DNA of 62,083 bases, taken from Verrucomicrobiota bacterium. Its GTDB lineage: Bacteria > Verrucomicrobiota > Verrucomicrobiia > Opitutales > Opitutaceae. The position numbers were made by a program, and so were the translations under genes. How positions within the stretch are numbered: position 1 is the first letter of the stretch; each line of letters starts with the position of its first letter. The stretch is taken from NCBI GenBank assembly GCA_947471035.1, contig CANIWJ010000005.1:1-62083 (forward strand), read 5' to 3'. This document shows, one piece after another, positions 4,953 through 37,211 of this stretch. The notes under the pieces were generated by a model, which saw nothing but the letters and a program-made list of their open reading frames with translations, searched no databases and was not told the DNA's origin.

Positions 4953-7418
4953 TTAGAAGCGGGCGCCGAGGGTGAAGCGGTAGGTTTCGCGTGAGTATTG
5001 GTTCTGGGTTACGCGGTCGCTGGCGGCCTCGCTGGCGCGTTCGGGGTAATCGAGCAGGTTGGTGATTTCCAGGCCGGCTTGGAGGGCCTTGTAACGCCAG
5101 GTGATCGCGGGGGTCAGGCTCACGACGTTGCCGCGATAGATGTCTTGGGCAGTGGTTTCTCCGATGCTGTCCAAGGCGCGGCTTTGAATAGAACCGGCGA
5201 TCTGCGCGCCCCAGCGTCCGCGTTCCCAGCGCACGCTGGAACGGAAGAGGTGGCGGGAACGTTCGGGCATGGGCAGGATCTGGCCGGGGCGGCTGGGAAT
5301 CTCGGCCTCGCTGTCGGAATAGGTGTAAACGTTTTCCAGGGTCCAGAGGCCGGTGTTGGTTTTAAGCGGCTGGCGGTAGAAAAGCTGGAAGCCCTGGATG
5401 GTGCCTGCGCCGCCGTTCTCGACTCGCGAAACGGAGTAGAGGGAGCCGTCGAGCACTTCGGTGGCGCGGGCGCCGTGGAAAAAGCCTTCGACGCCGATGC
5501 GGTAGAGTTCGAGGCCGACTCTGCCGGATCCAGGCAGGGGGCGCTCGACGGCGAGAAGGGTGGTAAAGAGTTCGGTGGGTTCGAGGTTGGGGTTACCCTC
5601 GGTGATGGTGCGGGTGGGTTGGTTGACGCGGCGGTAGGCGACGAGGTCGAAATACTGCGGGCGCATCAGGGATTGGTAGGCGGCGGCGCGGAAAACGAAG
5701 GGCTTGAAGTCTTTCCAAGCGAGGCCGAGCGAGGGGAGTACGTTGCGGTAGTCTTTCTCGCCGGTCGTTTCGCGGATGTTTTGGGTGACGCCGTTTTCCA
5801 CCACGGAGGCGAGGAGTTTGCCGGTGCCGGTATCGAGCGAGGCGGGCGTGGTGGAGGTGCCGAGGGTGGTGTTTTCGGTTTGTTCGAGGCGCACGCCGCC
5901 TTCGACTTCCCATTTGGGGTTGGCGACGAGGCCGCCGAGGTGGGCGGCGGAGACGGACTCAGTGGAGTCGTAGAGTTGCTGGTAGCTTTCGATGATGCTG
6001 CGGCTGGAATTGTAGGAGAAGGAGGCGGGGCGGGTGGAGAGGGCGTTTAGGCCGGCGTCGAAGTCGATGGCGCGGGGCAGCACGTAGGTGTCCTGCATGA
6101 TTTTGCCGGGATCTTGGTCGCGGGCGACTTCGGCGAGGGTAAGCGGGGCGGCGGCGTTGCGCAGATAGACACTGCGGGTTTCGCGGTTGGTGCGTTCTTT
6201 ACTGCGGTAGTGGAGACCGGTGAGCAGCCAGGCCTTGGTTTCTTCGTCGAGGAGTTTCCAGTCGGTGTCGAGGCGGAGGGCGCGGTCCTTGTCCACGGTG
6301 AGCGGGCGCTGGAGGCGGAGATCGTTGAAGGTGGCTTGGGTGAGGTCGGTGTAGGGGGTGCCGGCGGTTTTTTCCAAGCGGGGGAACCAGGGCGAGGAGA
6401 GGTCGTAGCGAAGGGCGAGTTTGTTTTCGGTGAAGTTCCACGCGTCGGTGGAAACGCGATTTTGCCAGTCGCTGAGGTAGCCGCGAAGGTCGGCATTGAA
6501 GCGGGGGCGTTCGAGGATGAGGCCGGCGGAATAGCGGCGGATTTCGCGCTCGGTCACGGCGTCGCTGAAAAAGCGGCGGGTGGTGGCGTTGGCCGAGTTG
6601 GCCTGGAGGAGGGAGCCGTCCGGGGAAATTTGAGGTGTACTGGTGGCGGAGCTCAGCTTGCCGGCGCCGTAGTTGAACTCGATGCGGTTGCGTTGGGCGA
6701 CGTCGTCGTAGTTGGCCCCGGTGAATTGAACGAAGGCGAGCAGGCCAGGGAACAGCTTTTTCTCCAACGCGACCCGGGCGGTGCGGTTGGTGGTGTCGAT
6801 GTCGTCTTGGGAAATACGGGCGCGGTCTAGGTAACGCGTGCCGGGGGCGAGGGTGCCGGGGGTCTTTTCCCAGGCGGCTTCGTAAAACTGGATGGCGCGG
6901 AGGGCGCTCTGTTGTTGCACGCGCAGGTCGATGATCAGGGGGCGTTCGCCGGGGGTGGCGCCGCGCCAGCCGATCTGGCCGCCCCAGGCTCCGGCGGTGG
7001 CGAGGGCGTTGTAGGTGTAGGTTAGCTCGGCGAGGCCGGGCTGGGGGCCGGGGCGTTTTAGGCCGGGGGTGCCGAAAAAGGAGCGGAAATCCACGCTTTC
7101 GCCGTCGCTGGCCACGCCGGGGATGCGGCCAAAGGCGCTTGGTTCCTGGTATTCGGAGGCGATGGGGTTGCGTTTGGTCAGGACGCGGCTGCGTTCGCGC
7201 GGGCTTTCGGTGGCGCTGGCGTCGGATTCGGTTGCGGCGGTGGGCTTGGCGGCGGCGCTTTTTTCAGCGGTGGCGGCGGCGGGCGCGACAACTACGGGGG
7301 CGGTTACCGCTGCGTTCAAAGGCGAGGAACCAGCGCGCCAGGCAAGCACAAGGGCCCAGACGATGAGCTGGGTGGAGCGGGCGAGGGGCCGATGGAAAAG
7401 GGACGGTGAGCAGGGCAT
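4953..7418 (-). CDS. TonB-dependent-receptor-like outer-membrane barrel lacking a plug
   Basis: An 821-residue outer-membrane protein. An N-terminal signal peptide ends near SPLNAA, then an Ala/Pro/Thr-rich linker reaches residue ~70. From about residue 110 the sequence alternates aromatic and polar strands to the C-terminus, ending YRFTLGARF with the terminal Phe used for barrel insertion. The blocks NPNLEPTE and LEITNLLDYPERAS are typical of the C-terminal half of TIGR01782-type TonB-dependent receptors. No recognisable plug domain or TonB box precedes the barrel, so it may be a degenerate receptor or a passive porin-like derivative. The substrate is unknown. Confidence 0.75.
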   Translation of the reverse strand: MPCSPSLFHRPLARSTQLIVWALVLAWRAGSSPLNAAVTAPVVVAPAAATAEKSAAAKPTAATESDASATESPRERSRVLTKRNPIASEYQEPSAFGRIPGVASDGESVDFRSFFGTPGLKRPGPQPGLAELTYTYNALATAGAWGGQIGWRGATPGERPLIIDLRVQQQSALRAIQFYEAAWEKTPGTLAPGTRYLDRARISQDDIDTTNRTARVALEKKLFPGLLAFVQFTGANYDDVAQRNRIEFNYGAGKLSSATSTPQISPDGSLLQANSANATTRRFFSDAVTEREIRRYSAGLILERPRFNADLRGYLSDWQNRVSTDAWNFTENKLALRYDLSSPWFPRLEKTAGTPYTDLTQATFNDLRLQRPLTVDKDRALRLDTDWKLLDEETKAWLLTGLHYRSKERTNRETRSVYLRNAAAPLTLAEVARDQDPGKIMQDTYVLPRAIDFDAGLNALSTRPASFSYNSSRSIIESYQQLYDSTESVSAAHLGGLVANPKWEVEGGVRLEQTENTTLGTSTTPASLDTGTGKLLASVVENGVTQNIRETTGEKDYRNVLPSLGLAWKDFKPFVFRAAAYQSLMRPQYFDLVAYRRVNQPTRTITEGNPNLEPTELFTTLLAVERPLPGSGRVGLELYRIGVEGFFHGARATEVLDGSLYSVSRVENGGAGTIQGFQLFYRQPLKTNTGLWTLENVYTYSDSEAEIPSRPGQILPMPERSRHLFRSSVRWERGRWGAQIAGSIQSRALDSIGETTAQDIYRGNVVSLTPAITWRYKALQAGLEITNLLDYPERASEAASDRVTQNQYSRETYRFTLGARF

Positions 7419-26302: not shown

Positions 26303-26764
26303 TTAGTCGATGCGGCCCTCGTCGAAGTCGATCAGGTCGGGCACGCTGAGGATTTGGCCGATGCGGTCGGTGCAGCCCATGGCAGTGAGGGCTTCGGCGA
26401 GGAACTTGCGGCCTTCTTCGCTCATGCCGCGCTGGCAGAGTTCGCGGTTCCACTTGATGGCGCGCACATCGGCAGGGAAGAGGGCACGCAGGCCGGTCTC
26501 GATGTCGGTGTCGTTGGCGGCCTCGTGGACGATTTTTTCCACGGCGGCGGGGTCGATGCCGAGGTGGAGGCAGAGGAAGCGGTCGAGGCCGCGTTTATAG
26601 TTTTTGGCGTAGCTTTTGGGCAGGGCGCCGTGGGCCTTTACGTAGCGGCACTTGGCGAGGAAGCGCGGGAGGTAGAGCAGGCCGGTGGCGGGGTGGGGGA
26701 GGTAGGGCGAGGGCAGGCAGGTGAGGACTTCGCCGGTCGATCCGGGTATGGGCTTGGAAGGCAT
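26303..26764 (-). CDS. DUF5069 family protein
   Basis: A 153-residue cytoplasmic protein recognised by SPYLPHPATGLLYLPRFLAKCRYVKAHGALP and by the closing IDFDEGRI. DUF5069 proteins are common in Verrucomicrobiota and Planctomycetota and their function is unknown. Start chosen at 26764 (MPSKPIPG), which leaves a 64-bp divergent gap to the sugar dehydrogenase gene. Confidence 0.82.
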   Translation of the reverse strand: MPSKPIPGSTGEVLTCLPSPYLPHPATGLLYLPRFLAKCRYVKAHGALPKSYAKNYKRGLDRFLCLHLGIDPAAVEKIVHEAANDTDIETGLRALFPADVRAIKWNRELCQRGMSEEGRKFLAEALTAMGCTDRIGQILSVPDLIDFDEGRID

Positions 26765-26828
26765 GATTGCCGCCAATGAGGCGCGGGCGGGGTTGCGGAG
26801 CAAGCGCGGGCGTGTATCGGTGGCCGGC

Positions 26829-28256
26829 ATGAAGCCATTTCGCGTCGCGTCGGTTGCGTTGTTCATGGGTTGCCTGGCAGCGGGGGCGTCGGCGCAGGAG
26901 TTGACGCGGGATGCGGGTAAACTTTACGCCGAGTTTTGCGCGACGTGCCACGGGGCGAACTTGGAAGGCGGGCAGGGCACCAGTTTGATCGACGATGTGT
27001 GGAATCGGGGGGACGGCAGCGACGAGCATCTAACCCGCATGATCACGGATGGCTTGGCGGATGCGGGCATGCCGAGTTTCGGCGCGGTGCTGGATGCGCC
27101 GCGGGTGCGCGGCCTGGTGGTGTATCTTCGGGAGCGGGCGGTGCGGGCGCAGGAGGCGCACACCGATTACGCCAAGCCGGTCGAAGGCATGGTCGTCAAA
27201 GGGCGGGCGGCGAGTTTCCGGATTGAGACGGTGGCGAGCGGGCTGGGCGTGCCGTGGTCGCTGGCGTTTTTACCCGGTGGCGACTTGTTGATCGCGGAGC
27301 GCGAGGGGGCTTTGCGACTGGTGCGGAACGGGCGTTTGGAGCCGACGCCAATAACAGGCACGCCGAAGGTTTGGGCGCAGGGGCAGGGTGGGCTCTTGGT
27401 GGTGGAGGCGCATCCCGACTATGCGCGCAACGGCTGGATCTATCTGGCGTTTAGCGATCCCGGGGAAAAGGCGGGCGAGGCGATGACGGCGGTGGTGCGC
27501 GGGCGGATTCGTGACGGGCGTTGGGTAGATGAGGAGCAAATCTACCGGGCGCCACGCGGGCTGTATCGCACCGGTGGAGTGCATTTCGGCACGCGGCTGG
27601 TGTTTGCCGAGGGTTATCTGTTTTTCGCCATCGGTGAGCGGGGCACGCAGGATCACGCGCAGGATCTCGGGCGGCCCAATGGCAAGATTCACCGCGTGCA
27701 CGACGATGGCCGGGTGCCGGCGGACAACCCCTTCGTGAACACGCCGGGGGCCTTGCCCACGATTTGGAGTTACGGGCATCGTAATCCGCAGGGTTTGGTG
27801 GCCCGGCCGGGCACGGCGGGCGCGGGGTTTCAGCTTTGGGAAACCGAGCATGGGCCGCGCGGGGGTGATGAGCTCAACGTGGTGCGGCGCGGCGCGAACT
27901 ACGGCTGGCCGCTGATCACTTACGGGATGAATTACAACGGCACGCCGATCACCGCGGAAACGGGGCGGCCGGGGCTTGAGCAGCCGGTTTTACATTGGAC
28001 GCCGTCCATCGCGGTTTGCGGGTTGGCGGTTTACGCGGGCGATCAATTCCCCGGCTGGCGGGGAAATTTGCTCATCGGTTCTTTGCAGCAACAGGAGATG
28101 CGCCGGCTGGTTTTGGACGGTGACCGGGTGCTTGAGCAGGAGGTATTGTTTCGCGGCATAGGCCGCGTCCGTTCAGTGCAAGTATCAACAAAGGGAGAAG
28201 TTTACGTGTGTTTGGAGGGACCGGGGCGGGTCTTGCGGCTGGTGCCGGTGAAGTAA
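26829..28256 (+). CDS. Cytochrome c-PQQ aldose dehydrogenase fusion, exported
   Basis: A 475-residue periplasmic enzyme. A signal peptide ends near GASAQE (~residue 23). A cytochrome c domain follows with C37-A-T-C-H41 and a Met ligand probably in GMPSF. From residue ~125 the sequence is a six-bladed propeller of the PQQ-dependent aldose-sugar dehydrogenase (Asd/GDH-B) type, with VASGLGVPWSLAFLPGGDLLIAER, VEAHPDYARNGWIYLAFS, GTRLVFAEGYLFFAIGERG, WSYGHRNPQGL and ETEHGPRGGDELNVV. It would oxidise sugars to lactones and pass electrons through its own haem to the respiratory chain. The built-in cytochrome avoids the need for a separate acceptor. Confidence 0.92.
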   Translation: MKPFRVASVALFMGCLAAGASAQELTRDAGKLYAEFCATCHGANLEGGQGTSLIDDVWNRGDGSDEHLTRMITDGLADAGMPSFGAVLDAPRVRGLVVYLRERAVRAQEAHTDYAKPVEGMVVKGRAASFRIETVASGLGVPWSLAFLPGGDLLIAEREGALRLVRNGRLEPTPITGTPKVWAQGQGGLLVVEAHPDYARNGWIYLAFSDPGEKAGEAMTAVVRGRIRDGRWVDEEQIYRAPRGLYRTGGVHFGTRLVFAEGYLFFAIGERGTQDHAQDLGRPNGKIHRVHDDGRVPADNPFVNTPGALPTIWSYGHRNPQGLVARPGTAGAGFQLWETEHGPRGGDELNVVRRGANYGWPLITYGMNYNGTPITAETGRPGLEQPVLHWTPSIAVCGLAVYAGDQFPGWRGNLLIGSLQQQEMRRLVLDGDRVLEQEVLFRGIGRVRSVQVSTKGEVYVCLEGPGRVLRLVPVK

Positions 28257-28299: not shown

Positions 28300-28315
28300 T
28301 GGCACGGGATTTGCT
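28300..28315 (+). promoter_or_regulatory. Sigma-54 (RpoN) promoter of the secreted aminotransferase gene
   Basis: The sequence TGGCACG-GGAT-TTGCT matches the sigma-54 consensus TGGCACG-N4-TTGCW exactly, with the invariant GG (28301-28302) and GC (28313-28314) correctly spaced. The transcription start would fall near 28326, 60 bp before the ATG at 28386. Sigma-54 promoters need an AAA+ activator, which is not in this window. Confidence 0.88.
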
Positions 28316-28385
28316 GAATTCATACTGACCTCTCCTCAAGGAGACTTGAGGGGCATCGCCGTCTGCAAACTCAACCATAACCTCC

Positions 28386-29516
28386 ATGCTATTCCTTCAG
28401 AATGTTTCCAAATACGCCCGGGTGCTTACCGCCACCGGCGCTATTCTCGCCACCAACGCGGTCTTCGCCCAGCACGAGGTCGATGACTCCGCCGACGCCG
28501 GCCCGGTTAAGATTTCCGGTAACGAAAACGCCTTCGGTTATTCCCCGGCCGCGATGACCGCCATGATGCAGTCGCTCGGTGGTATCAACCGCTATGCCCG
28601 TACCCAGGCCGAAGACTTCACCGCCGCAGTTGCCGCGCACGAGAAGGTTCCAGCCAATTTCATCCTCCCCACCCCTGGCTCCGGCCCGGTGTTGAGCATG
28701 ACCGCGCTGGCTTATGCCGCGCCCGGCAAGAATGTCGTCACCGTGACCCCTGGCTACACCCAGTTGACCAATCTGTTCGCCAGCCAAGGTGGCACCGTTA
28801 AGTCTGTGCCTCTCAATGAAAACCTCGCTTACGATCTGAAGGCCATCGAGGCCGCGATCGATAAGGACACGGTCATCGTTTACATCTGCAATCCGAACAA
28901 CCCGACCGGCACCGTGCCCGATCCCGAAGAGCTCAAAGCCTTCGTTCGCCGCATCCCGAAGAACGTGTTGATTTTCGCTGACGAAGCCTACCTCGAGCTC
29001 GCTCCCGGCGGTGTTGAAAAACACAGCTTGGCCCCGCTGCTCAACGAAGGTCTCAACATGATCGTTTCCCGCACCATGTCCAAGGCCTACGGTATGGCCG
29101 GTCTGCGCGTTGGCTACGGCATGGCCAAGCCTGAGATCCTCACCAAGCTCCGCCCCTATTACCAGGGTGGTCCTAACTTGCTCGCCCTTGTCGGCGGCAC
29201 CGCTGCCATTCTCGACAAGGAATTCCTCGCCGAGAACATCGCCAACTACGCCAAGGTGCGCGAGATGGTTACCAAGGAACTCGCCGGTCTCGGCATCAAG
29301 TTCGCTGAGCCCAATGGTAGCTTCATCTTCATGGAAACCGGCATCGAAGCCGTTGAATTCCAGAAGCTGATGCTCGCTGAGAAGATCGAAGTCGGCCGTC
29401 CCTTCGCTCCTATGACCAAGTGGGCCCGCGTGAGCATCGGCACCGAGGACGAAATGAAGCGTTTCCTCGTCGCCTTCAAGAAGGTCATGACCGCTCAGGG
29501 CAAGTTGAAGGGTTAA
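28386..29516 (+). CDS. Secreted HisC-like PLP aminotransferase
   Basis: A 376-residue fold-type I aminotransferase resembling histidinol-phosphate aminotransferases. Key features are NPNNPTGT, FADEAYLEL, the PLP lysine Lys233 in RTMSKAYGMAGLRVGYG and the C-terminal WARVSIG segment. Unlike cytoplasmic relatives it starts with a Sec-type signal (MLFLQNVSKYARVLTATGAI...) ending NAVFA-Q, so the mature enzyme should be periplasmic. It lies behind a consensus sigma-54 promoter and a strong terminator follows, making it a single-gene unit with strongly C-ending codon use suggestive of high expression. Substrates are unknown; context points to amino-group transfer in periplasmic nitrogen scavenging. 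Confidence 0.82.
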   Translation: MLFLQNVSKYARVLTATGAILATNAVFAQHEVDDSADAGPVKISGNENAFGYSPAAMTAMMQSLGGINRYARTQAEDFTAAVAAHEKVPANFILPTPGSGPVLSMTALAYAAPGKNVVTVTPGYTQLTNLFASQGGTVKSVPLNENLAYDLKAIEAAIDKDTVIVYICNPNNPTGTVPDPEELKAFVRRIPKNVLIFADEAYLELAPGGVEKHSLAPLLNEGLNMIVSRTMSKAYGMAGLRVGYGMAKPEILTKLRPYYQGGPNLLALVGGTAAILDKEFLAENIANYAKVREMVTKELAGLGIKFAEPNGSFIFMETGIEAVEFQKLMLAEKIEVGRPFAPMTKWARVSIGTEDEMKRFLVAFKKVMTAQGKLKG

Positions 29517-29536
29517 TTTTGGTTTAACTAGGTTGG

Positions 29537-29580
29537 AATCGGCTGCGGTGGCTTAACTCGCCTCGCAGCCGATTTTTTTT
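29537..29580 (+). terminator. Rho-independent terminator after the aminotransferase gene
   Basis: A perfect 11-bp stem (aatcggctgcg at 29537-29547 and cgcagccgatt at 29564-29574) is followed by a run of T residues reaching 29580. It separates the aminotransferase message from the MFS gene. Confidence 0.92.
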
Positions 29581-29605
29581 GCCCAGCCTACGACCTAACC
29601 CACGC

Positions 29606-30823
29606 ATGACGGAGCAAGCGGAATTTCGGGATCGGTTGGGCGCGCAGCTGTGCGCCGCGATCCAGTTTGTGCTCACGGCGCAATCGTTGCTGATGATCCC
29701 GATGTTGCCGGCCTTTGCCGAGCGGCACGGGCAAAGCGGCGGCAGCGTGGCGCTTATTCTGGTGGTTTATGCGGTGGTGATGGGGGTGGGCACCGGGTTG
29801 ATGGGGCCTTTGTCGGATAGGGTGGGGCGCAAGAAAATGATCTTCGCCGGCTCGGCCATGACCGGGCTTTGTCTGACTGGGCATTTTTGGGCGCATGATT
29901 TCGCCACCTTGCTGGTTTTGCGGGCGCTGACCGCAGTGGGGCACAGTATTTTGATCGGAGCGTTTACCTGTTTCGTGGCTGATCGGTTCCCGCACAAGCA
30001 GCGGGTGAAGGCCAACGGGCGCATCCAGCTCGGCTATATCGCCGGGCAGACGGCGGGGGTATCGGCCGGTCTCTTTTTACTGGATCGCGTGGGGCCGGAA
30101 GGCGTGCTTGGGTTGTGGGGGCTGCTTTTGCTGCCGATCAGTCTGGTTTTCGGTTGGGTGGTCGGGCCGGAGCGCGAAGAGGACGTTGCCCCGGCCGCGG
30201 TGCGTTTGCGTTGGCGCGATCACGTGGAGGCCTGGCGCGGACTCTCCGCCAGTTTTGGCACGGTCAGCACGTTGACGGCTTACGCGCTGATGTTCGTGGC
30301 GGCGCATGCGTTTCTGGTCGTTTTCCCTCTTTGGGGGCATGACCGGTTGGAGTTTAATTCCGAAACCCTGGGTTTTGTGTTTTTGGCGGGAGGCATCGTG
30401 CAGGCGCTTTTTCTGGTGGTGCCCGGCACGCCGCGTTTCGCCAAACGGCACGGATCCTTAATCGTGGGCTCTTTACGCTGGAGTGGCTTCGTGGTGATGG
30501 CGGCGGCGTTGTGGCCGGAAGCGGCCGGGGTGATTATCGGGGTCTATCTTTTGTTTTCCGCTTTGCTGGCGGTGCGCATGGGGCCCTTGCAGGTGGCGAT
30601 GTCGGGCATCGCGGCCCGGCACCATCGCGGCACCTGGACGGGCTGGGTGCAGTCGAGCGGCCAGGCGGGTCGGGCGGTGGGGGCGTGGCTGGGCGGCATG
30701 TCGTATTCGTTTTTGGGTGTGCGGGCCGTGTTCGTGATCGCGGCGGGTATGTTCATCGCGTCCGCCCTGCTTTTTGCACGCGGGCAGGCCTTGAAAGACA
30801 CCGCGCTTCCCGAGGTCTCTTGA
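29606..30823 (+). CDS. MFS transporter, DHA1-like
   Basis: A 405-residue carrier with twelve predicted helices. The A-motif is GPLSDRVGRKKMIFAGSA between helices 2 and 3, and the helix 4 region reads LVLRALTAVGHSILIGA. A charged central loop (GPEREEDVAPAAVRLRW) separates the two halves. The DHA1-type N-terminus (LTAQSLLMIPMLPAFAERHG) suggests a drug- or metabolite-proton antiporter. It sits between the two sigma-54-controlled amine genes, and its stop codon is 5 bp before the second sigma-54 promoter, so it might move an amine or its product, but no sequence feature fixes the substrate. Confidence 0.85.
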   Translation: MTEQAEFRDRLGAQLCAAIQFVLTAQSLLMIPMLPAFAERHGQSGGSVALILVVYAVVMGVGTGLMGPLSDRVGRKKMIFAGSAMTGLCLTGHFWAHDFATLLVLRALTAVGHSILIGAFTCFVADRFPHKQRVKANGRIQLGYIAGQTAGVSAGLFLLDRVGPEGVLGLWGLLLLPISLVFGWVVGPEREEDVAPAAVRLRWRDHVEAWRGLSASFGTVSTLTAYALMFVAAHAFLVVFPLWGHDRLEFNSETLGFVFLAGGIVQALFLVVPGTPRFAKRHGSLIVGSLRWSGFVVMAAALWPEAAGVIIGVYLLFSALLAVRMGPLQVAMSGIAARHHRGTWTGWVQSSGQAGRAVGAWLGGMSYSFLGVRAVFVIAAGMFIASALLFARGQALKDTALPEVS

Positions 30824-30828
30824 GCGGC

Positions 30829-30844
30829 TGGCACGTTGACTGCT
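30829..30844 (+). promoter_or_regulatory. Sigma-54 (RpoN) promoter of the amine-oxidase operon
   Basis: TGGCACG-TTGA-CTGCT matches the sigma-54 consensus except for C in place of T at the first base of the -12 box; GG and GC keep the exact spacing seen in the promoter at 28300. The start codon of the amine oxidase is 51 bp downstream of the element. Two such elements 2.5 kb apart in related genes make chance unlikely. Confidence 0.82.
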
Positions 30845-30894
30845 TGGTGGGGAGTCCGGCCCGGCTAAACCACCGCGGCCCATAACAAGCCACA

Positions 30895-32454
30895 ATGACC
30901 AACAAACCCCTCACTCGTAGAGACTTTATCCATTTGGCCGGACGATATGGCGGCACCGCATTTACCGCCATCACCGCTCTCGGCATGATCAGCAAGGCCT
31001 CCGGCCAAGGCGTGGTTTTGGCCGACCGGCCCAAGTTGAGCAGCGGAAAGAAAGTTTTGATTCTCGGTGCGGGCGTGGCGGGCATGACCGCCGCCTACGA
31101 ACTGGCCAAGCTGGGTATCGACAGCGTGATTTTCGAGGCCGGCAAACGCGCGGGCGGTCGTTGCATCACCATCCGCAAGGGCGACGTCGTGGAAGAGACG
31201 ACCGGCGTGAAGCAGGTGTGCGAATTCGATGACGACCAATATTTCGATCCAGGTCCGGTCCGTTTCCCCCAGTGGCAGGTCACGATGGACTACTGCCGTG
31301 AGCTCAAGGTTCCTATCGCGCCCTTCGTGGGCCTGAACGAGAACGCTTACTACTTGAGCACCAAAGAGGGCGGCTTGAAGAACAAGCGCTTGCGCATCCG
31401 CGAGGCCAAAACCGATTTGCGCGGCTACACCGCCGAGCTGCTCGCCAAGGTTGTGGACCAAGCATCGCTCGATCAGCCCTTGGATGCGGCCGATAAAGAG
31501 AAGCTCATCGAATTCCTTCGTTACGAGGGCGGTCTGGATAAATCCAACAAGTACACCGGCCACAGCCGTCGTGGTTTCGAGCTCTGGCCTGCTGCTGGTT
31601 TGCAGGAAGGCACACTGGGCGAGAAGCTCGGCTTTAAGGATTTGCTCAACTCCGAGCTCGGTCTGCTTTTCCACCGAGCCAATGACTTTCACTACCAGTC
31701 TGCCATGTTCGCTCCCGTGGGCGGCATGGACAACATCGCCAAGGCGCTGGAGCGCGAAACCAAGGACAAGATCATCTACGGCGCCAAAGTGAAGGAGTTC
31801 CGCAAGACTCCGACCGGGGCCAAGGTCATCTACACCAAGGATGGCGCCGATACCGAGGTCACCGGCGATTATCTGATTTGCACGCTTCCGCCGACCATCC
31901 TGAAGCGTATACCGAACGACTTCTCCGCACCGGTGAAAAGCGTGGTCAATATCGTGCCCTTCCAGAACTCGGGTAAGATCGGCCTCCAGTTCAAGCGTCG
32001 CTTCTGGGAAACCGACGACCGCATCTTCGGCGGCATTTCCTGGACCGGTCTGCCCAACGGCGAGATCTGGTATCCTAACCACGGTTACTTCAAACCCAAG
32101 GGCTTGCTCACCGGTTACTACGTGTTTGGTCCGGTGTGTGACCAGCTGGGCCGCATGTCGCCGGCCGAGCGCACCGAGTTTGCCCTGGCAAATGGTTCGC
32201 AACTGCACCCGCAATATCGCGACGCCTTCGAGACCGCCATTTCCTATAACTGGGCCACGATCCCGAACATCGAGGGCTGCCTCGCGCACTTCCCGCAGGC
32301 CATGATCAAGACCTTCTATCCGTTGCTGGTGAAGCCGGACGGCAATTTCTATATCGCTTCCGACTGGGCCAGCCACCTCGGCGGCTGGCAGGCCGGTGCC
32401 TTCGAGGCCGCCCGTCTCGCGGTGGACAGTATCTATAAACGCTCGGCCGCCTGA
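30895..32454 (+). CDS. Tat-exported flavin amine oxidase/dehydrogenase
   Basis: A 519-residue FAD enzyme of the flavin-containing amine oxidase family (PF01593). The N-terminus carries a Tat signal (LTRRDFIHLAGRYGG) so the enzyme is exported folded with its FAD. The dinucleotide-binding site is VLILGAGVAGMTAAYELAKLG with VIFEAGKRAGGRC. The C-terminal FAD segment YIASDWASHLGGWQAGAFEAARLAV closes the fold. Members oxidise monoamines, polyamines or L-amino acids to imines. A lipoprotein cytochrome c gene follows 19 bp downstream, so electrons may go to cytochrome c instead of oxygen. It heads a sigma-54-controlled operon through 37211. Confidence 0.92.
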   Translation: MTNKPLTRRDFIHLAGRYGGTAFTAITALGMISKASGQGVVLADRPKLSSGKKVLILGAGVAGMTAAYELAKLGIDSVIFEAGKRAGGRCITIRKGDVVEETTGVKQVCEFDDDQYFDPGPVRFPQWQVTMDYCRELKVPIAPFVGLNENAYYLSTKEGGLKNKRLRIREAKTDLRGYTAELLAKVVDQASLDQPLDAADKEKLIEFLRYEGGLDKSNKYTGHSRRGFELWPAAGLQEGTLGEKLGFKDLLNSELGLLFHRANDFHYQSAMFAPVGGMDNIAKALERETKDKIIYGAKVKEFRKTPTGAKVIYTKDGADTEVTGDYLICTLPPTILKRIPNDFSAPVKSVVNIVPFQNSGKIGLQFKRRFWETDDRIFGGISWTGLPNGEIWYPNHGYFKPKGLLTGYYVFGPVCDQLGRMSPAERTEFALANGSQLHPQYRDAFETAISYNWATIPNIEGCLAHFPQAMIKTFYPLLVKPDGNFYIASDWASHLGGWQAGAFEAARLAVDSIYKRSAA

Positions 32455-32473
32455 GCCCTTTTTAATTAACGTC

Positions 32474-32977
32474 ATGCAGACTCAGGGGTTTTCCCTTCAG
32501 CGGCCCGCTCGTTTGGCCGTGTTCTTGGTTTTGCTCAGTGGGTTGGGCCTAGGCTCCGCTTGCTCAAAAAAGCCGGAACGTTCCGCCGGCTCGGTTAAAC
32601 AAGGTGCCGTCGTCAAAGTCGCGGCCGGTTCAGGTGCCGCTGCGGTGGCGGCGGCTGGAGGCGATCGCAACACCGTCCTGGCTGCCATGGCCAAGGACAA
32701 GAACCTGGTTAAATCAGGCGGCGAAAACTTCGAGATGTTTTGCGTCAGCTGTCATGGCCGGCCGGGTGCACTTTTGCCCGGTGTGGCCGACGCCTCGCCC
32801 TCGAACCTGTTTGATCAGGCTTGGTTTCACGGCGGGCTGCCGTCCGAGATCGAGCGGACCATCACGCAGGGCTTTAACGACAAGGGCATGCCGGCTTGGG
32901 ACGGCATGCTCGAGAAAGACAAAATCGAGTCCCTCGTCGCCTATATCTATTCGTTTCAAACCGCTTCGAAAAACTAA
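32474..32977 (+). CDS. Lipoprotein cytochrome c
   Basis: A 167-residue single-haem cytochrome. The signal peptide ends in a lipobox-like LGLGSAC, so the mature protein is probably lipid-anchored. After a Lys/Ala/Gly-rich linker, the haem motif is C90-V-S-C93-H94, with the distal Met likely in FNDKGMPAWDGM. The C-terminal KIESLVAYIYSFQ helix is standard for class I cytochromes. It lies between the amine oxidase and ammonium-transporter genes (3-bp gap to the latter), so it probably takes electrons from the amine oxidase to the respiratory chain. The start at 32474 puts the lipobox at the right depth. Confidence 0.92.
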   Translation: MQTQGFSLQRPARLAVFLVLLSGLGLGSACSKKPERSAGSVKQGAVVKVAAGSGAAAVAAAGGDRNTVLAAMAKDKNLVKSGGENFEMFCVSCHGRPGALLPGVADASPSNLFDQAWFHGGLPSEIERTITQGFNDKGMPAWDGMLEKDKIESLVAYIYSFQTASKN

Positions 32978-32980
32978 TCC

Positions 32981-34342
32981 ATGATCACCACCGCCAAACT
33001 CCGCACCGCATTCGCCTGGACCGGCTTCCTGCTTTTGGCGGGGGTCGTTTCGGCCCAATCCGTCGCGGCGCGCATCCCCACCGAGGCGACCTACGACGCC
33101 TACATGGATAACCTGATCCAGGAGTATTCCTTCTTCACCGCCAGCAACGTCTGGCTGCTGGTGTGTTGCGGATTCATGATCCTCATGCACCTCGGTTTTC
33201 TCTGTCTGGAAACCGGCCTGAATCGCTCGAAGAACGCGGTCAATATCCTCTACAAAAACGTCTTCATCCTCTCCATCGGCATGGTGCTCTACGCCCTGAC
33301 CGGCTTCAGCACGATGTATCCGCCCGATACCTTCAACGGCATCATCCGCCTCGGCGGCTGGATCGGGGTCGATAAGACCAAGTTCCTCGAAATCATGACG
33401 ACCAAGTCGGGTGCCAACATCACCTACTGGGCCGACTTCCTCTTCAAGGCGACCTTCGCCGCCACCGCCGCCACCATCGCCTCGGGCGCGGTCGCCGAAC
33501 GCGTCAAACTGGTGCCTTTCATGATCTACACAGCCGTGATGGTCGGTCTCTGCTTCCCCGTCGCCGGTTCCTGGACCTGGGGTGGTGGCTGGCTCGCCCG
33601 CCACGGTTTCGTGGACTTCGCCGGTGCCTCGGTGGTACACGTTTTCGGCGGGTTCTCCGCTTTGGCCGCCGTCTTGGTCCTCGGGCCTCGTCTGGGTAAA
33701 TACCTGCCGGACGGCAAACTCCGCCCCATCGTGGGCCACAGCATGCCGCTGGCCGCCATCGGTGTTTTCCTGCTCTGGTTCGGCTGGTTCGGCTTTAACG
33801 GTGGTTCCGTCCTCAACGCCCAGCCCGAGCGCATCGGCCGCGTGCTGGTCGTAACCGCGCTCGCCGGTTGCACCGGTGCTCTTAGCTCCATGGTCATCAG
33901 CCAGATTCTCCTCCGTCGTCCCGACCTCTCCATGGCGCTCAACGGCGTGCTCGCCGGTCTGGTCAGCATCACCGGTGGCGCCGATTCGATCGAGCCGCTC
34001 TGGGGCATGGTCGCGGGCGCCATCGGCGGCGTGATCGTGGTGTTGTCCGTCATTTTCTTCGACAAGATCAAGGTGGACGATCCGGTCGGCGCGGTCTCGG
34101 TGCACGCCGTCTGCGGCCTTTGGGGCACGATCGCGGTCGGCATCTGGGGCAGCGGCAAGTTGCTTTGGCAGGTGATTGGCGGCCTTTCCTACGCACTCAT
34201 CGCGTTCGTGGTCGGTTTCGCGCTCTTCTCGCTTCTGAAACTTATCATGGGCGTGCGCGTGACGGAGGCGGAGGAGATCGAGGGTCTCGACCTCGCCGAG
34301 CACGGTCAAAAAGCCTACACCGAAGAAAACCACGGGGTCTGA
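32981..34342 (+). CDS. amt: Ammonium transporter (Amt/MEP/Rh family)
   Basis: A 453-residue ammonium channel with eleven membrane helices. A cleavable signal (MITTAKLRTAFAWTGFLLLAGVVSAQ) precedes the core, as in many Amt proteins. The pore twin histidines are His220 (ASVVHVFGG) and His375 (VSVHAVCGLWGT). The blocks GFLCLETGLNRSKNA and WFGWFGFNGGS are conserved, and the cytoplasmic tail has RVTEAEEIEGLDLAEHG. Its placement in the amine-oxidation operon, with no glnB/glnK gene beside it, suggests it captures ammonia released in the periplasm rather than environmental ammonium. Confidence 0.97.
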   Translation: MITTAKLRTAFAWTGFLLLAGVVSAQSVAARIPTEATYDAYMDNLIQEYSFFTASNVWLLVCCGFMILMHLGFLCLETGLNRSKNAVNILYKNVFILSIGMVLYALTGFSTMYPPDTFNGIIRLGGWIGVDKTKFLEIMTTKSGANITYWADFLFKATFAATAATIASGAVAERVKLVPFMIYTAVMVGLCFPVAGSWTWGGGWLARHGFVDFAGASVVHVFGGFSALAAVLVLGPRLGKYLPDGKLRPIVGHSMPLAAIGVFLLWFGWFGFNGGSVLNAQPERIGRVLVVTALAGCTGALSSMVISQILLRRPDLSMALNGVLAGLVSITGGADSIEPLWGMVAGAIGGVIVVLSVIFFDKIKVDDPVGAVSVHAVCGLWGTIAVGIWGSGKLLWQVIGGLSYALIAFVVGFALFSLLKLIMGVRVTEAEEIEGLDLAEHGQKAYTEENHGV

Positions 34343-34354
34343 GGATCTCCGGCC

Positions 34355-35812
34355 ATGTCCGTCTTTCACTCATCCCATCGCCCCGGCCTCATCTGGGGCA
34401 TTTTCGGAGCGGCTTTGGCGCTCTGGTTCGGGCTCGCCTGGACCGTCGTCCACGAGCATCCCGAATTCAAAGTCGTTAAAATCGCCAAGACCGACCTTAA
34501 GCCCATGTCGGTCGTGGTGCAGCCCGGCACCTCGTATTTCTTTACCTGGGGCGTGACCGCTCGTCCGCGCTCCAAGCTGATCGCCCAGCGCTCGCTCCCC
34601 GAGGAAGAACGCTTTGGCAATACCTTCCAGCAGACCCACAGCGTGCTGACCAACTTGCGCGACGACTTGGAGCAGGTTGGCCTGAACCTGCGCGACGTCG
34701 TGCACGTGCGTGCCTACGTGGTGGGCGACGCCGAGAATCCACCTGATTTCGAGTCTTCGGACCGCGCCTTCCGCGATTTCTTCGGCACCGCGCTCCAGCC
34801 GCATGTGCCGGCCATCACCAAGATCGGCATCGCCCGCCTGTTCTTGCCCGCCTACCAGACCGAGATCGAGTTTATCGCCGCGTTCCCTCCCGGTCGTGGC
34901 CCGCTCGTCCCCGGCACTCGCCCTTGGCTTAATCAAGAGCGTCTGCGCCGCGTCGAGACCCGCCCCGAGTGGCGCTCGATCGGCCGCCCGATGTTTCAGA
35001 TGAGCACGGGCAAGGCGGTAATCGGTGGTCAGGCGCTGGCCGTGACCTCCGCGCTGCAAGCCACGCCCATCAATCCCAAGTTGCCTGAGGCGGCCTGGAC
35101 CTATGGCACGACCGCGCAGCAGTCCACGTCCTTGATCAAGCGCGGCGAGGCCATGCTCGCGACCGCCGGCATCGACTACAAAGACGTGTTTTTCGTGCGC
35201 ACCATGATGTTTCCTGAGAAGGGCGTGAACATCGGCCGCAACTTCGGCATCTTCGGCACCGAATACGGAAAGTTCTTTAACAACCCCGCCAATCCGAACC
35301 GCCCCACCCGCACCGTGATGTCGGCTCCCGGCTATGCCTACCGCAAGGAGGCGCTCGCGCTGGAAATGTATGCGCTAGCCAAAGATCCGGCCACCGCGGT
35401 GCCGGAGGATGCGCGCCTTAAAGCCTATCCTCGCCCCGGACAGCCGATCAGCGATGTGGTGGTGGTCTCGCCCCGCGCCGCGCTGGGCTGGATGGCGGGC
35501 ATCGTCGAGCCTGCCGCCGGCAACCTTGAGGCGCAGGCGACCGCGTGTTTACAGACCTTGGAAACACGCCTGACCTCGCTTGGCGGCGGTTTGGCTGATG
35601 TTGCGCATATCCGCGCTTACGTTGTGGCCAAAGATATGGAGCCCCGGCTTGCGGTGGCGGGCTGGATGAAAGCCTATTCCGCCATGTTCGGCACAGAAAA
35701 GAATCCCCACAAACCCGCCCTTACGGTGCTACCTGTCGTAGCCTTGCCCGGCGGTGGCCTGGTCGAAGTCGAGTCGCTTGCCGCGCTCCCGCCTTCGGCC
35801 GCCAAGAAATAA
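34355..35812 (+). CDS. Membrane-anchored protein with three fused RidA (YjgF) domains
   Basis: A 485-residue protein. Residues ~11-31 form one membrane helix (GLIWGIFGAALALWFGLAWTV) with positive charges before it, so the rest should face the periplasm. Three consecutive RidA-like domains follow at about 40-175, 205-345 and 365-478. RidA enzymes hydrolyse reactive enamines and imines to carbonyls and ammonia, and normally work as homotrimers with an arginine at each subunit interface. Here the conserved Arg is kept only in the middle domain (Arg319 in PTRTVM); domains 1 and 3 read PAITKI and PALTVL at that point. It starts 12 bp after the Amt stop. It could therefore be a single-chain pseudotrimer with one active site. 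Confidence 0.85.
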   Translation: MSVFHSSHRPGLIWGIFGAALALWFGLAWTVVHEHPEFKVVKIAKTDLKPMSVVVQPGTSYFFTWGVTARPRSKLIAQRSLPEEERFGNTFQQTHSVLTNLRDDLEQVGLNLRDVVHVRAYVVGDAENPPDFESSDRAFRDFFGTALQPHVPAITKIGIARLFLPAYQTEIEFIAAFPPGRGPLVPGTRPWLNQERLRRVETRPEWRSIGRPMFQMSTGKAVIGGQALAVTSALQATPINPKLPEAAWTYGTTAQQSTSLIKRGEAMLATAGIDYKDVFFVRTMMFPEKGVNIGRNFGIFGTEYGKFFNNPANPNRPTRTVMSAPGYAYRKEALALEMYALAKDPATAVPEDARLKAYPRPGQPISDVVVVSPRAALGWMAGIVEPAAGNLEAQATACLQTLETRLTSLGGGLADVAHIRAYVVAKDMEPRLAVAGWMKAYSAMFGTEKNPHKPALTVLPVVALPGGGLVEVESLAALPPSAAKK

Positions 35813-35822
35813 CCCTTCTCTT

Positions 35823-37211
35823 GTGATCGCCGCGCCCGCAGCCGCCCCGGTCTGGCGTCACCCTGTGACGGCGGCACCGCTTGCCACCTACCTCACCGAC
35901 GACGCGGTCGCGGTGGAGCGTATCCTGGCCGCCACCCAGCGCACTTATGAGCAGTGGTCGCGCCTGAATCCGGTGCAACGGGTCGCCCCGTTTCTGCGCC
36001 TGGCCGAGTTGCTGCGTTTGGAAATGCACGAGCTCGCTCCGATGATTTCGGGCGAGATGGGCAAGACCCGCCACGAAGCCGAGGAAGAGTTGGCCCAGTG
36101 CGCCCGCATTTGCGACCACTACGCGGCGGTCGGGCCCGCTCTCCTTAAGGACGAAGAAGTGCAGACCCGCGCCGGACGTCACCTCGTGGCCCGCTGTCCT
36201 ATCGGTCCCATTCTGGCGGTGCTGCCCTGGAGCTTTCCGTTTTGGCAGGTGTTTCGCACCGCGATTCCGAATCTGGCGGCGGGCAATACCGTGGTGGTAA
36301 AACCCGCGCCGAATGTGCCGCGCTGTTCGCTCGCGCTGGAGGATTTGTTTGTTCGCGCCGGCATGCCGGTGGGCGCGCTTTCGATGGTCCACGTCGAACC
36401 CGGCCGGGTGGAGCGTTTGGTGGCCGATCCGCGCATCCGCGGCGTGTCGGTGACGGCCGGCGTGGTTGCAGGCCGCGCAGTGGCCGAGGCGGCGGGGCGG
36501 CATCTTAAAAAAGTCGTGCTCGAACTCGGCGGTAGCGACCCGTGGTTAATCATGGAGGACGCCGATCTGGACCAAGTGGCGGCCGATATCGTGAAAGCCC
36601 GCCTCCGCAACAACGGCCAGTGCTGCATCGGCCCCAAGCGCGTGATCGTGGCCCGTGCGGTCAAAGACGCGCTGGCGGAGCGGCTGGTGGAGCGCCTGAC
36701 CAAGCTGAAGTTTGGCGACCCGCTCGCCGCCGGGGTGGATTTGGGGCCGATGGCGCGTTTCGACTTACGCGACCGGGCTCATGAAGTGGTGCAGGAAGCG
36801 GTAGCCAAAGGTGCCAAAGTGCATTGCGGCGGCTACGTGCCCGAGCTGCCGGGAGCGTTTTATCCGGCCACGCTGGTTTCGGGGGTGCGCCCGGGCATGA
36901 AGTTGTTCGACGACGAGATTTTCGGTCCGATCGTGGTGCTCTGCGCGCACGACGGCTGGCAGGAGGCGGTGGCGCTGGCCAACCGCAGCGATTTCGCGCT
37001 CGGCGCGGCGATTTACACCCAAGACGAAGAGCGGGCGAAGAAGACCCTGCTGACGGAGATTTCCTGCGGCGTGGCGGCGATCAACTCCATCCCCCGCTCA
37101 GATATGTCTTTGCCCTTCGGCGGCACCAAACACTCCGGCTTCGGCCGCGAGCTGGGCTCGGCCGGCCTGACCGAGTTCACCTGCCCCGTAACCCTGCGCA
37201 TCGGGGCTTGA
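35823..37211 (+). CDS. NAD(P)-dependent aldehyde dehydrogenase (succinate-semialdehyde-like)
   Basis: A 462-residue cytoplasmic aldehyde dehydrogenase. The family motifs are present: the VLPWSFPFWQV cofactor region, Glu234 in LELGGSDPW as general base, and the catalytic nucleophile Cys268 in NNGQCC. The late PFGGTKHSGFGRELG segment is typical of the GabD/SSADH group. I chose the GTG at 35823, 10 bp after the RidA-like gene stop; the longer frame overlaps that gene. It should oxidise an aldehyde derived from the periplasmic amine to a carboxylate. It is the last gene of the amine operon. Confidence 0.9.
   Translation: MIAAPAAAPVWRHPVTAAPLATYLTDDAVAVERILAATQRTYEQWSRLNPVQRVAPFLRLAELLRLEMHELAPMISGEMGKTRHEAEEELAQCARICDHYAAVGPALLKDEEVQTRAGRHLVARCPIGPILAVLPWSFPFWQVFRTAIPNLAAGNTVVVKPAPNVPRCSLALEDLFVRAGMPVGALSMVHVEPGRVERLVADPRIRGVSVTAGVVAGRAVAEAAGRHLKKVVLELGGSDPWLIMEDADLDQVAADIVKARLRNNGQCCIGPKRVIVARAVKDALAERLVERLTKLKFGDPLAAGVDLGPMARFDLRDRAHEVVQEAVAKGAKVHCGGYVPELPGAFYPATLVSGVRPGMKLFDDEIFGPIVVLCAHDGWQEAVALANRSDFALGAAIYTQDEERAKKTLLTEISCGVAAINSIPRSDMSLPFGGTKHSGFGRELGSAGLTEFTCPVTLRIGA

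Follow-up and report, generated by a model that had tools for sequence, protein, structure and literature searches.

A seven-gene cluster in the genome of a Verrucomicrobiota bacterium (Opitutaceae) probably encodes a sigma-54-controlled nitrogen-scavenging system, in which L-amino acids would be oxidised in the periplasm with transfer of electrons to a cytochrome c, the resulting imines hydrolysed by a Rid protein and the ammonium imported by a transporter of the ammonium transporter (Amt) family. The window, the whole stretch of DNA analysed, comprises 62,083 nucleotides and is contig G000:C5 of a 3.64 Mb genome in 232 contigs (92% complete, 6.6% contamination). The seven genes span 28386 to 37211, all on the forward strand. 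The first (28386..29516, +) encodes a HisC/PRK09105-like PLP aminotransferase of class I/II with a Sec-type signal and the PLP lysine motif SKxYGMAG, for which the NCBIfam scores lie below their cut-offs. It is followed by genes for an MFS transporter (29579..30823, +; first ATG 29606, stop 30823), an L-amino acid oxidase-type flavoenzyme (Amino_oxidase; 30895..32454, +) with a twin-arginine signal, a mono-haem cytochrome c (CVSCH; 32474..32977, +) with a signal and a possible lipobox, by which it is possibly anchored as a lipoprotein, an ammonium transporter (Ammonium_transp; 32981..34342, +), a protein of three fused Rid domains (Ribonuc_L-PSP; 34355..35812, +) and an SSADH-like aldehyde dehydrogenase (Aldedh; 35823..37211, +), whose start is more likely to be the in-frame GTG at 35823 than position 35754. 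The export signals of all cluster proteins were read by eye. Open reading frames and Pfam matches agree with the initial annotation on the five genes from the oxidase onwards, on their order, strands and families; its aminotransferase does lie upstream of the oxidase, although 'just upstream' passed over the MFS gene between the two. Just ahead of the cluster, on its upstream side at 26721-28256 (+), lies a gene for a cytochrome c domain fused to a glucose/sorbosone dehydrogenase domain with a signal-like N-terminus, found at full length in loci L022 and L023 and not in five other loci compared.

Gene order and inheritance in Opitutales

The Rid alignment reduced 68 candidate stretches to 11 named loci, titled Verrucomicrobia(e/iia), Opitutales, Opitutaceae, Puniceicoccaceae or Pelagicoccus. 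The order oxidase-cytochrome c-Amt-Rid was found in 11/11 and the aldehyde dehydrogenase in 10/11, and the closest named relatives of the cluster come from a Verrucomicrobia MAG (Rid 98%) and an Opitutaceae MAG (Rid 94%). Merging duplicates (L022=L029, L023=L030, L025=L039, L026=L032 and L031=L054) gave 15 distinct clusters including that of the window; left out of the counts were L010-L021, in which oxidase matches are limited to the FAD-binding stretch, L009/L028 (G017), with a 38% oxidase and no other cluster genes, short loci, and a triple-Rid paralogue in G004 known as a short locus only. Conservation of the gene order in relatives, which the initial annotation had put forward as a check on its proposal, holds for the core in every one of the 15 Opitutales clusters, with the four genes on one strand and Amt always between cytochrome c and Rid. 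The flanking genes are more variable: the aminotransferase is present in 14/15 (absent from L027), the MFS gene in 13/15 (absent from L027 and L055; proteins 24-30% identical outside the window genus) and the aldehyde dehydrogenase in 12/15, the sequence of L038 ending too soon and two of the 14 clusters that reach far enough (L027 and L055) having none, so that L027 is without a match to any of the three.

Pairwise distances for five proteins across 13 clusters are correlated with r of 0.87-0.98, and for each of the 10 protein pairs 0/2000 permutations gave a correlation as high. The cluster thus behaves as one inherited unit, although shared species history also contributes to the correlation. 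Its distribution is patchy, with an oxidase of at least 58% identity in 7/57 near relatives (3/15 in the genus), a full triple Rid in 6/384 genomes of the class and a close oxidase in 6/387 genomes of the phylum. Four more distant oxidases from the phylum search (38-44%) had no Amt or cytochrome c match nearby, and three of them adjoin a Rid that matches as a single domain.

Further genes join the cluster in relatives. In 11/15 it is accompanied by genes for another aminotransferase and for an outer-membrane beta-barrel, and in 6/15 the aldehyde dehydrogenase has genes for gamma-glutamyltranspeptidase (GGT) and an M19 dipeptidase nearby. The three clusters of the window genus have neither pair, and no GGT was found in the window genome (92% complete). 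Separately, a TonB-dependent-receptor-like outer-membrane beta-barrel is encoded at 4953-7418 (-), ~21 kb upstream of the cluster; it shares 35% of 782 aligned residues with the barrel that belongs to the L024 cluster.

The oxidase, its substrate and its partners

Judged from its sequence, the oxidase is closest to L-amino acid oxidases and not to generic amine oxidases. Its best PDB match is the Rhodococcus opacus L-amino acid oxidase 2jae (E 7.2e-86), with whole-length similarity and 36% identity across 469 aligned residues; the runners-up are 5ts5, deposited under the name 'Amine oxidase' (3.9e-30), and then chains named L-amino acid oxidase, with monoamine oxidase B chains far weaker (best E 7.2e-10). 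In this comparison by sequence alone, R123, Y409 and W498 align with presumed active-site residues of 2jae that we take to be the carboxylate arginine, a tyrosine and the cage tryptophan. The GPxRFP arginine, presumably the carboxylate-binding residue, is invariant, and together with the YY pair and GGWQAG it is kept in 15/15 clusters. The N-terminus carries the twin-arginine motif LTRRDFIHLAG. None of the best 25 of 38 NCBIfam matches lies above its model's cut-off, and the AlphaFold model of the oxidase is poor (pLDDT 62).

The Rid protein combines a Pfam Rid match with a structure model of pLDDT 82.8, in which residues 10-33 form an N-terminal helix, apparently uncleaved, that reads as a membrane anchor; the triple Rid protein of the initial annotation thus stands, with a predicted tether to the membrane added. 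Among the 50 Foldseek matches listed, single Rid chains were found at a target TM of 0.57-0.81, and chorismatase and cyclic amide hydrolase chains with rmsd of 17-21 fill the top nine rows. The model's fit is good to single Rid chains and loose to triple-domain enzymes. The equivalent of the RidA Arg-105, placed by eye against the RidA sequence, is present in domain 2 in 15/15 clusters (R319 in the window), in domain 1 in 12/15 and in domain 3 in 0/15. Isoleucine replaces it in domain 1 of the three clusters of the window genus, where 2/3 sites lack the arginine presumed necessary for deaminase activity, a point against the proposed role of the protein. Rid proteins hydrolyse the products of L-amino acid oxidases in vitro, and deaminase activity is predicted from the Arg-105 equivalent, according to the available text of the relevant reports (PMC4433059/PMC5619798).

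Rid paralogues elsewhere can have a different partner. At L053:8064-10700 (G000:C8, the same genome), a signal-bearing triple-Rid paralogue lies head to head with a Tat-signal flavoenzyme resembling D-amino acid oxidases, and the pair recurs in 4/5 paralogue loci (L053, L056, L057 and L058; not L059). This enzyme is circularly permuted in L053 and L056, its C-terminal GLRP...YGHG part preceding the FAD-binding part; no permuted D-amino acid oxidase is named in open-access paper titles among the matches listed.

The transporter is assigned with 353.9 bits in Pfam and by TIGR00836 above its cut-off, and both histidines that we take to be the pore pair are kept in 15/15 clusters. The genome has three further Amt genes, and a different contig carries both P-II genes, each next to an Amt gene; we therefore reject the cluster Amt as the housekeeping copy.

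The aldehyde dehydrogenase is probably cytoplasmic, since no signal peptide is visible, and it has no place in amino-acid deamination, an aldehyde not being expected from amino-acid oxidation. Its best model is the SSADH PRK09406 in the window, L025 and L032 and the SSADH TIGR01780 in L024, all model scores being below their cut-offs and the best model differing between genera; in L025 the gene is on the opposite strand. The enzyme would have a job if the system catabolised primary amines, releasing an imine and an aldehyde in the periplasm for oxidation of the aldehyde inside, and both its presence in 12/15 clusters and the Pfam family name, amine oxidase, speak for that reading. The 2jae match and the conserved arginine lead us to rank an amine substrate lower; monoamine oxidase B is also a far weaker match, 5ts5 notwithstanding, and the published Rid assays, in the text available, use imines and enamines derived from amino acids (PMC4433059, PMC5619798). 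Amine catabolism is therefore improbable, and of the chain drawn in the initial annotation the steps from imine through Rid and ammonia to Amt hold together as a logic, without the amine at its head.

Putative sigma-54 sites

Sigma-54-type promoter sites precede both the aminotransferase and the oxidase, where the initial annotation had placed them. The site TGGCACGGGATTTGCT (28300..28315, +) matches the consensus in full, lies 70 nt ahead of the aminotransferase gene (P 0.0013 by comparison with random 200-mers from the window) and recurs with one change in the genus relative L023, and TGGCACGTTGACTGCT (30829..30844, +), with one mismatch, lies 50 nt before the oxidase. Across 14 clusters the top-scoring site among the 120 nt upstream of the oxidase reaches 11.5-14.5 of 15 and is located 37-70 nt from the start. 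By comparison with random 120-mers taken from each locus, p<0.05 holds in 13/14; the scoring weights are our own, several of the 14 loci are close relatives, and L022 was left out. Support for the aminotransferase promoter is weaker, because the corresponding sites reach p<0.05 in 6/13 clusters. Sigma-54-like matches with at most two mismatches are not enriched as a class (24 in the window against 27.0 expected), so the case rests on position and conservation. The genome contains rpoN. The sites are consistent with nitrogen control, short of proof.

Three other observations concern possible regulatory sequence. Contig G000:C4 (L079) carries two tandem amt-glnK pairs with a sigma-54-like site upstream of each amt, and these are the only two sites of such score in that 9 kb region, a similarity that speaks for nitrogen control of the cluster as well. 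The window also contains a perfect 7-bp hairpin at 28334-28351 (+), CCTCAAG-GAGA-CTTGAGG, within what is presumably the leader of the aminotransferase gene; the genus relative L023 has it too. Finally, where the MFS and second aminotransferase genes converge, the gap between them holds a sigma-54-like site and, after it, the nearly invariant element TGAAGATGTCYAGTAAACA (L024:5298-5316), which occurs in 10 distinct clusters (L024, L025, L026, L031-L034, L036-L039 and L054, with one change in L035); it is absent from the window. Its flanking arms pair, with changes on both sides at three pairs and broken pairing in some sequences, and the RNAalifold covariation term is slightly unfavourable (+0.27). 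Exact matches occur in 2/286 genomes, one copy each, and the one locus searched matched no Rfam family at gathering score. TGAAGATGTCYAGTAAACA could be a promoter, a small RNA or a DNA element.

Known arrangements and the proposed pathway

The initial annotation knew of no described pathway with these parts, yet the core is in print. In Gluconacetobacter diazotrophicus PAL5, genes in the order lao-cccA-ridA encode a Tat-signal L-amino acid oxidase, a cytochrome c and a Rid protein, the latter two suggested to assist the oxidase, and this organisation is reported to be conserved in Caulobacter crescentus and Xanthomonas (PMC5053998). The available part of that report, concerned with auxin and not with nitrogen supply, makes no mention of Amt, a triple Rid, a secreted aminotransferase, an aldehyde dehydrogenase or sigma-54 control. 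Beyond the three-gene unit with its single-domain Rid, the window cluster has a triple Rid, Amt, aminotransferase, MFS transporter and aldehyde dehydrogenase. A plasmid survey gave 42 records with an oxidase match, and in 8/8 regions examined the homologue was accompanied by cytochrome c and/or Rid: oxidase-cytochrome c-RidA in Microvirga, Paracoccus, Comamonas and Sulfitobacter, oxidase and cytochrome c in Deinococcus, Mesorhizobium and Rhizobium, and oxidase-Rid-tatA-tatC in Metabacillus. No Amt is listed within 5 kb of the oxidase in these eight regions, the gene table being incomplete.

The use of such an enzyme for nitrogen has a precedent in Chlamydomonas, in which a periplasmic oxidase, LAO1, has a Rid gene, LAO2(RidA), in its cluster, is induced by nitrogen limitation and yields ammonium that supports growth; unlike the proposed bacterial system it is eukaryotic and makes hydrogen peroxide, and a transporter in the cluster goes unmentioned in the accessible text (PMC10805672). 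In Pseudomonas aeruginosa, a flavin dehydrogenase unable to use oxygen, DadA, is likewise paired with a Rid protein of the same operon, DadY, which hydrolyses the imino acid, but this is a D-alanine enzyme and the operon, as described in the part available, contains no Amt (PMC9714295). Since the lao-cccA-ridA core and the Chlamydomonas LAO1/Rid pair have both been described, the cluster is an enlarged version of a known arrangement; what looks new is the enlarged unit with its own Amt, of which we found no description in the open-access literature.

The G. diazotrophicus precedent also raises the prospect of a keto-acid or auxin-like signal, with the oxidase and aminotransferase making indole-3-pyruvate or a similar compound and the aldehyde dehydrogenase completing indole-3-acetic acid (IAA). 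In that organism IAA is no longer formed when lao of this core carries an insertion, as the available text states (PMC5053998), and an aminotransferase and an aldehyde dehydrogenase are compatible with the indole-pyruvate route. However, none of the eight window proteins searched in Pfam is of the pyruvate-decarboxylase type, and Amt, the sigma-54 sites and the GGT/dipeptidase genes indicate nitrogen supply, which makes a signalling role a little less probable again than amine catabolism. Some secreted bacterial L-amino acid oxidases produce hydrogen peroxide as a weapon, but an oxygen-using enzyme of this kind, with Amt and Rid incidental, is most improbable given a cytochrome c gene beside the oxidase in 15/15 clusters and the tight co-inheritance of the oxidase with Amt and Rid. 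Overall, nitrogen supply through periplasmic L-amino-acid deamination accounts for the data better than do amine catabolism, auxin synthesis or peroxide warfare.

The sequences themselves show which genes are present and in what order, how far they are conserved and inherited together, their site residues and the promoter-like sites; from these we infer what acts as substrate and as electron acceptor, where the reactions take place, that nitrogen limitation induces the genes, and what the aminotransferase and peptidases do. On this reading the cell would, under nitrogen limitation, export an L-amino acid oxidoreductase that converts periplasmic L-amino acids to 2-imino acids, the electrons going to the cytochrome c encoded next to it and not to oxygen. 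The membrane-anchored triple Rid would then hydrolyse the imine to a 2-oxo acid and ammonia, and the dedicated, adjacent Amt would import ammonium before it is lost. One or more secreted aminotransferases could transfer amino groups to the 2-oxo acid regenerated by the oxidase and so extend the substrate range, and in Pelagicoccus gamma-glutamyltranspeptidase and dipeptidase may supply free amino acids. A more tentative extension, which we regard as possible and rather doubtful, is a periplasmic transdeamination cycle in which the aminotransferases gather the amino groups of many amino acids on one 2-oxo acid, the cytochrome-c-linked oxidase and triple Rid free the ammonia for import by Amt and restore the 2-oxo acid, and the amino acids themselves stay outside, with a D-amino-acid counterpart elsewhere in the genome.

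The usual view is that bacteria take up amino acids first and deaminate them within the cell. If the proposed deamination pathway is correct, these Opitutales would have a bacterial parallel to the extracellular amino acid oxidation of algae, with electrons drained into respiration and an ammonium importer of its own, and Rid proteins would stand where imine hydrolysis has an evident purpose. It would also bear on competition for nitrogen in water and on the fate of the left-over 2-oxo acids.
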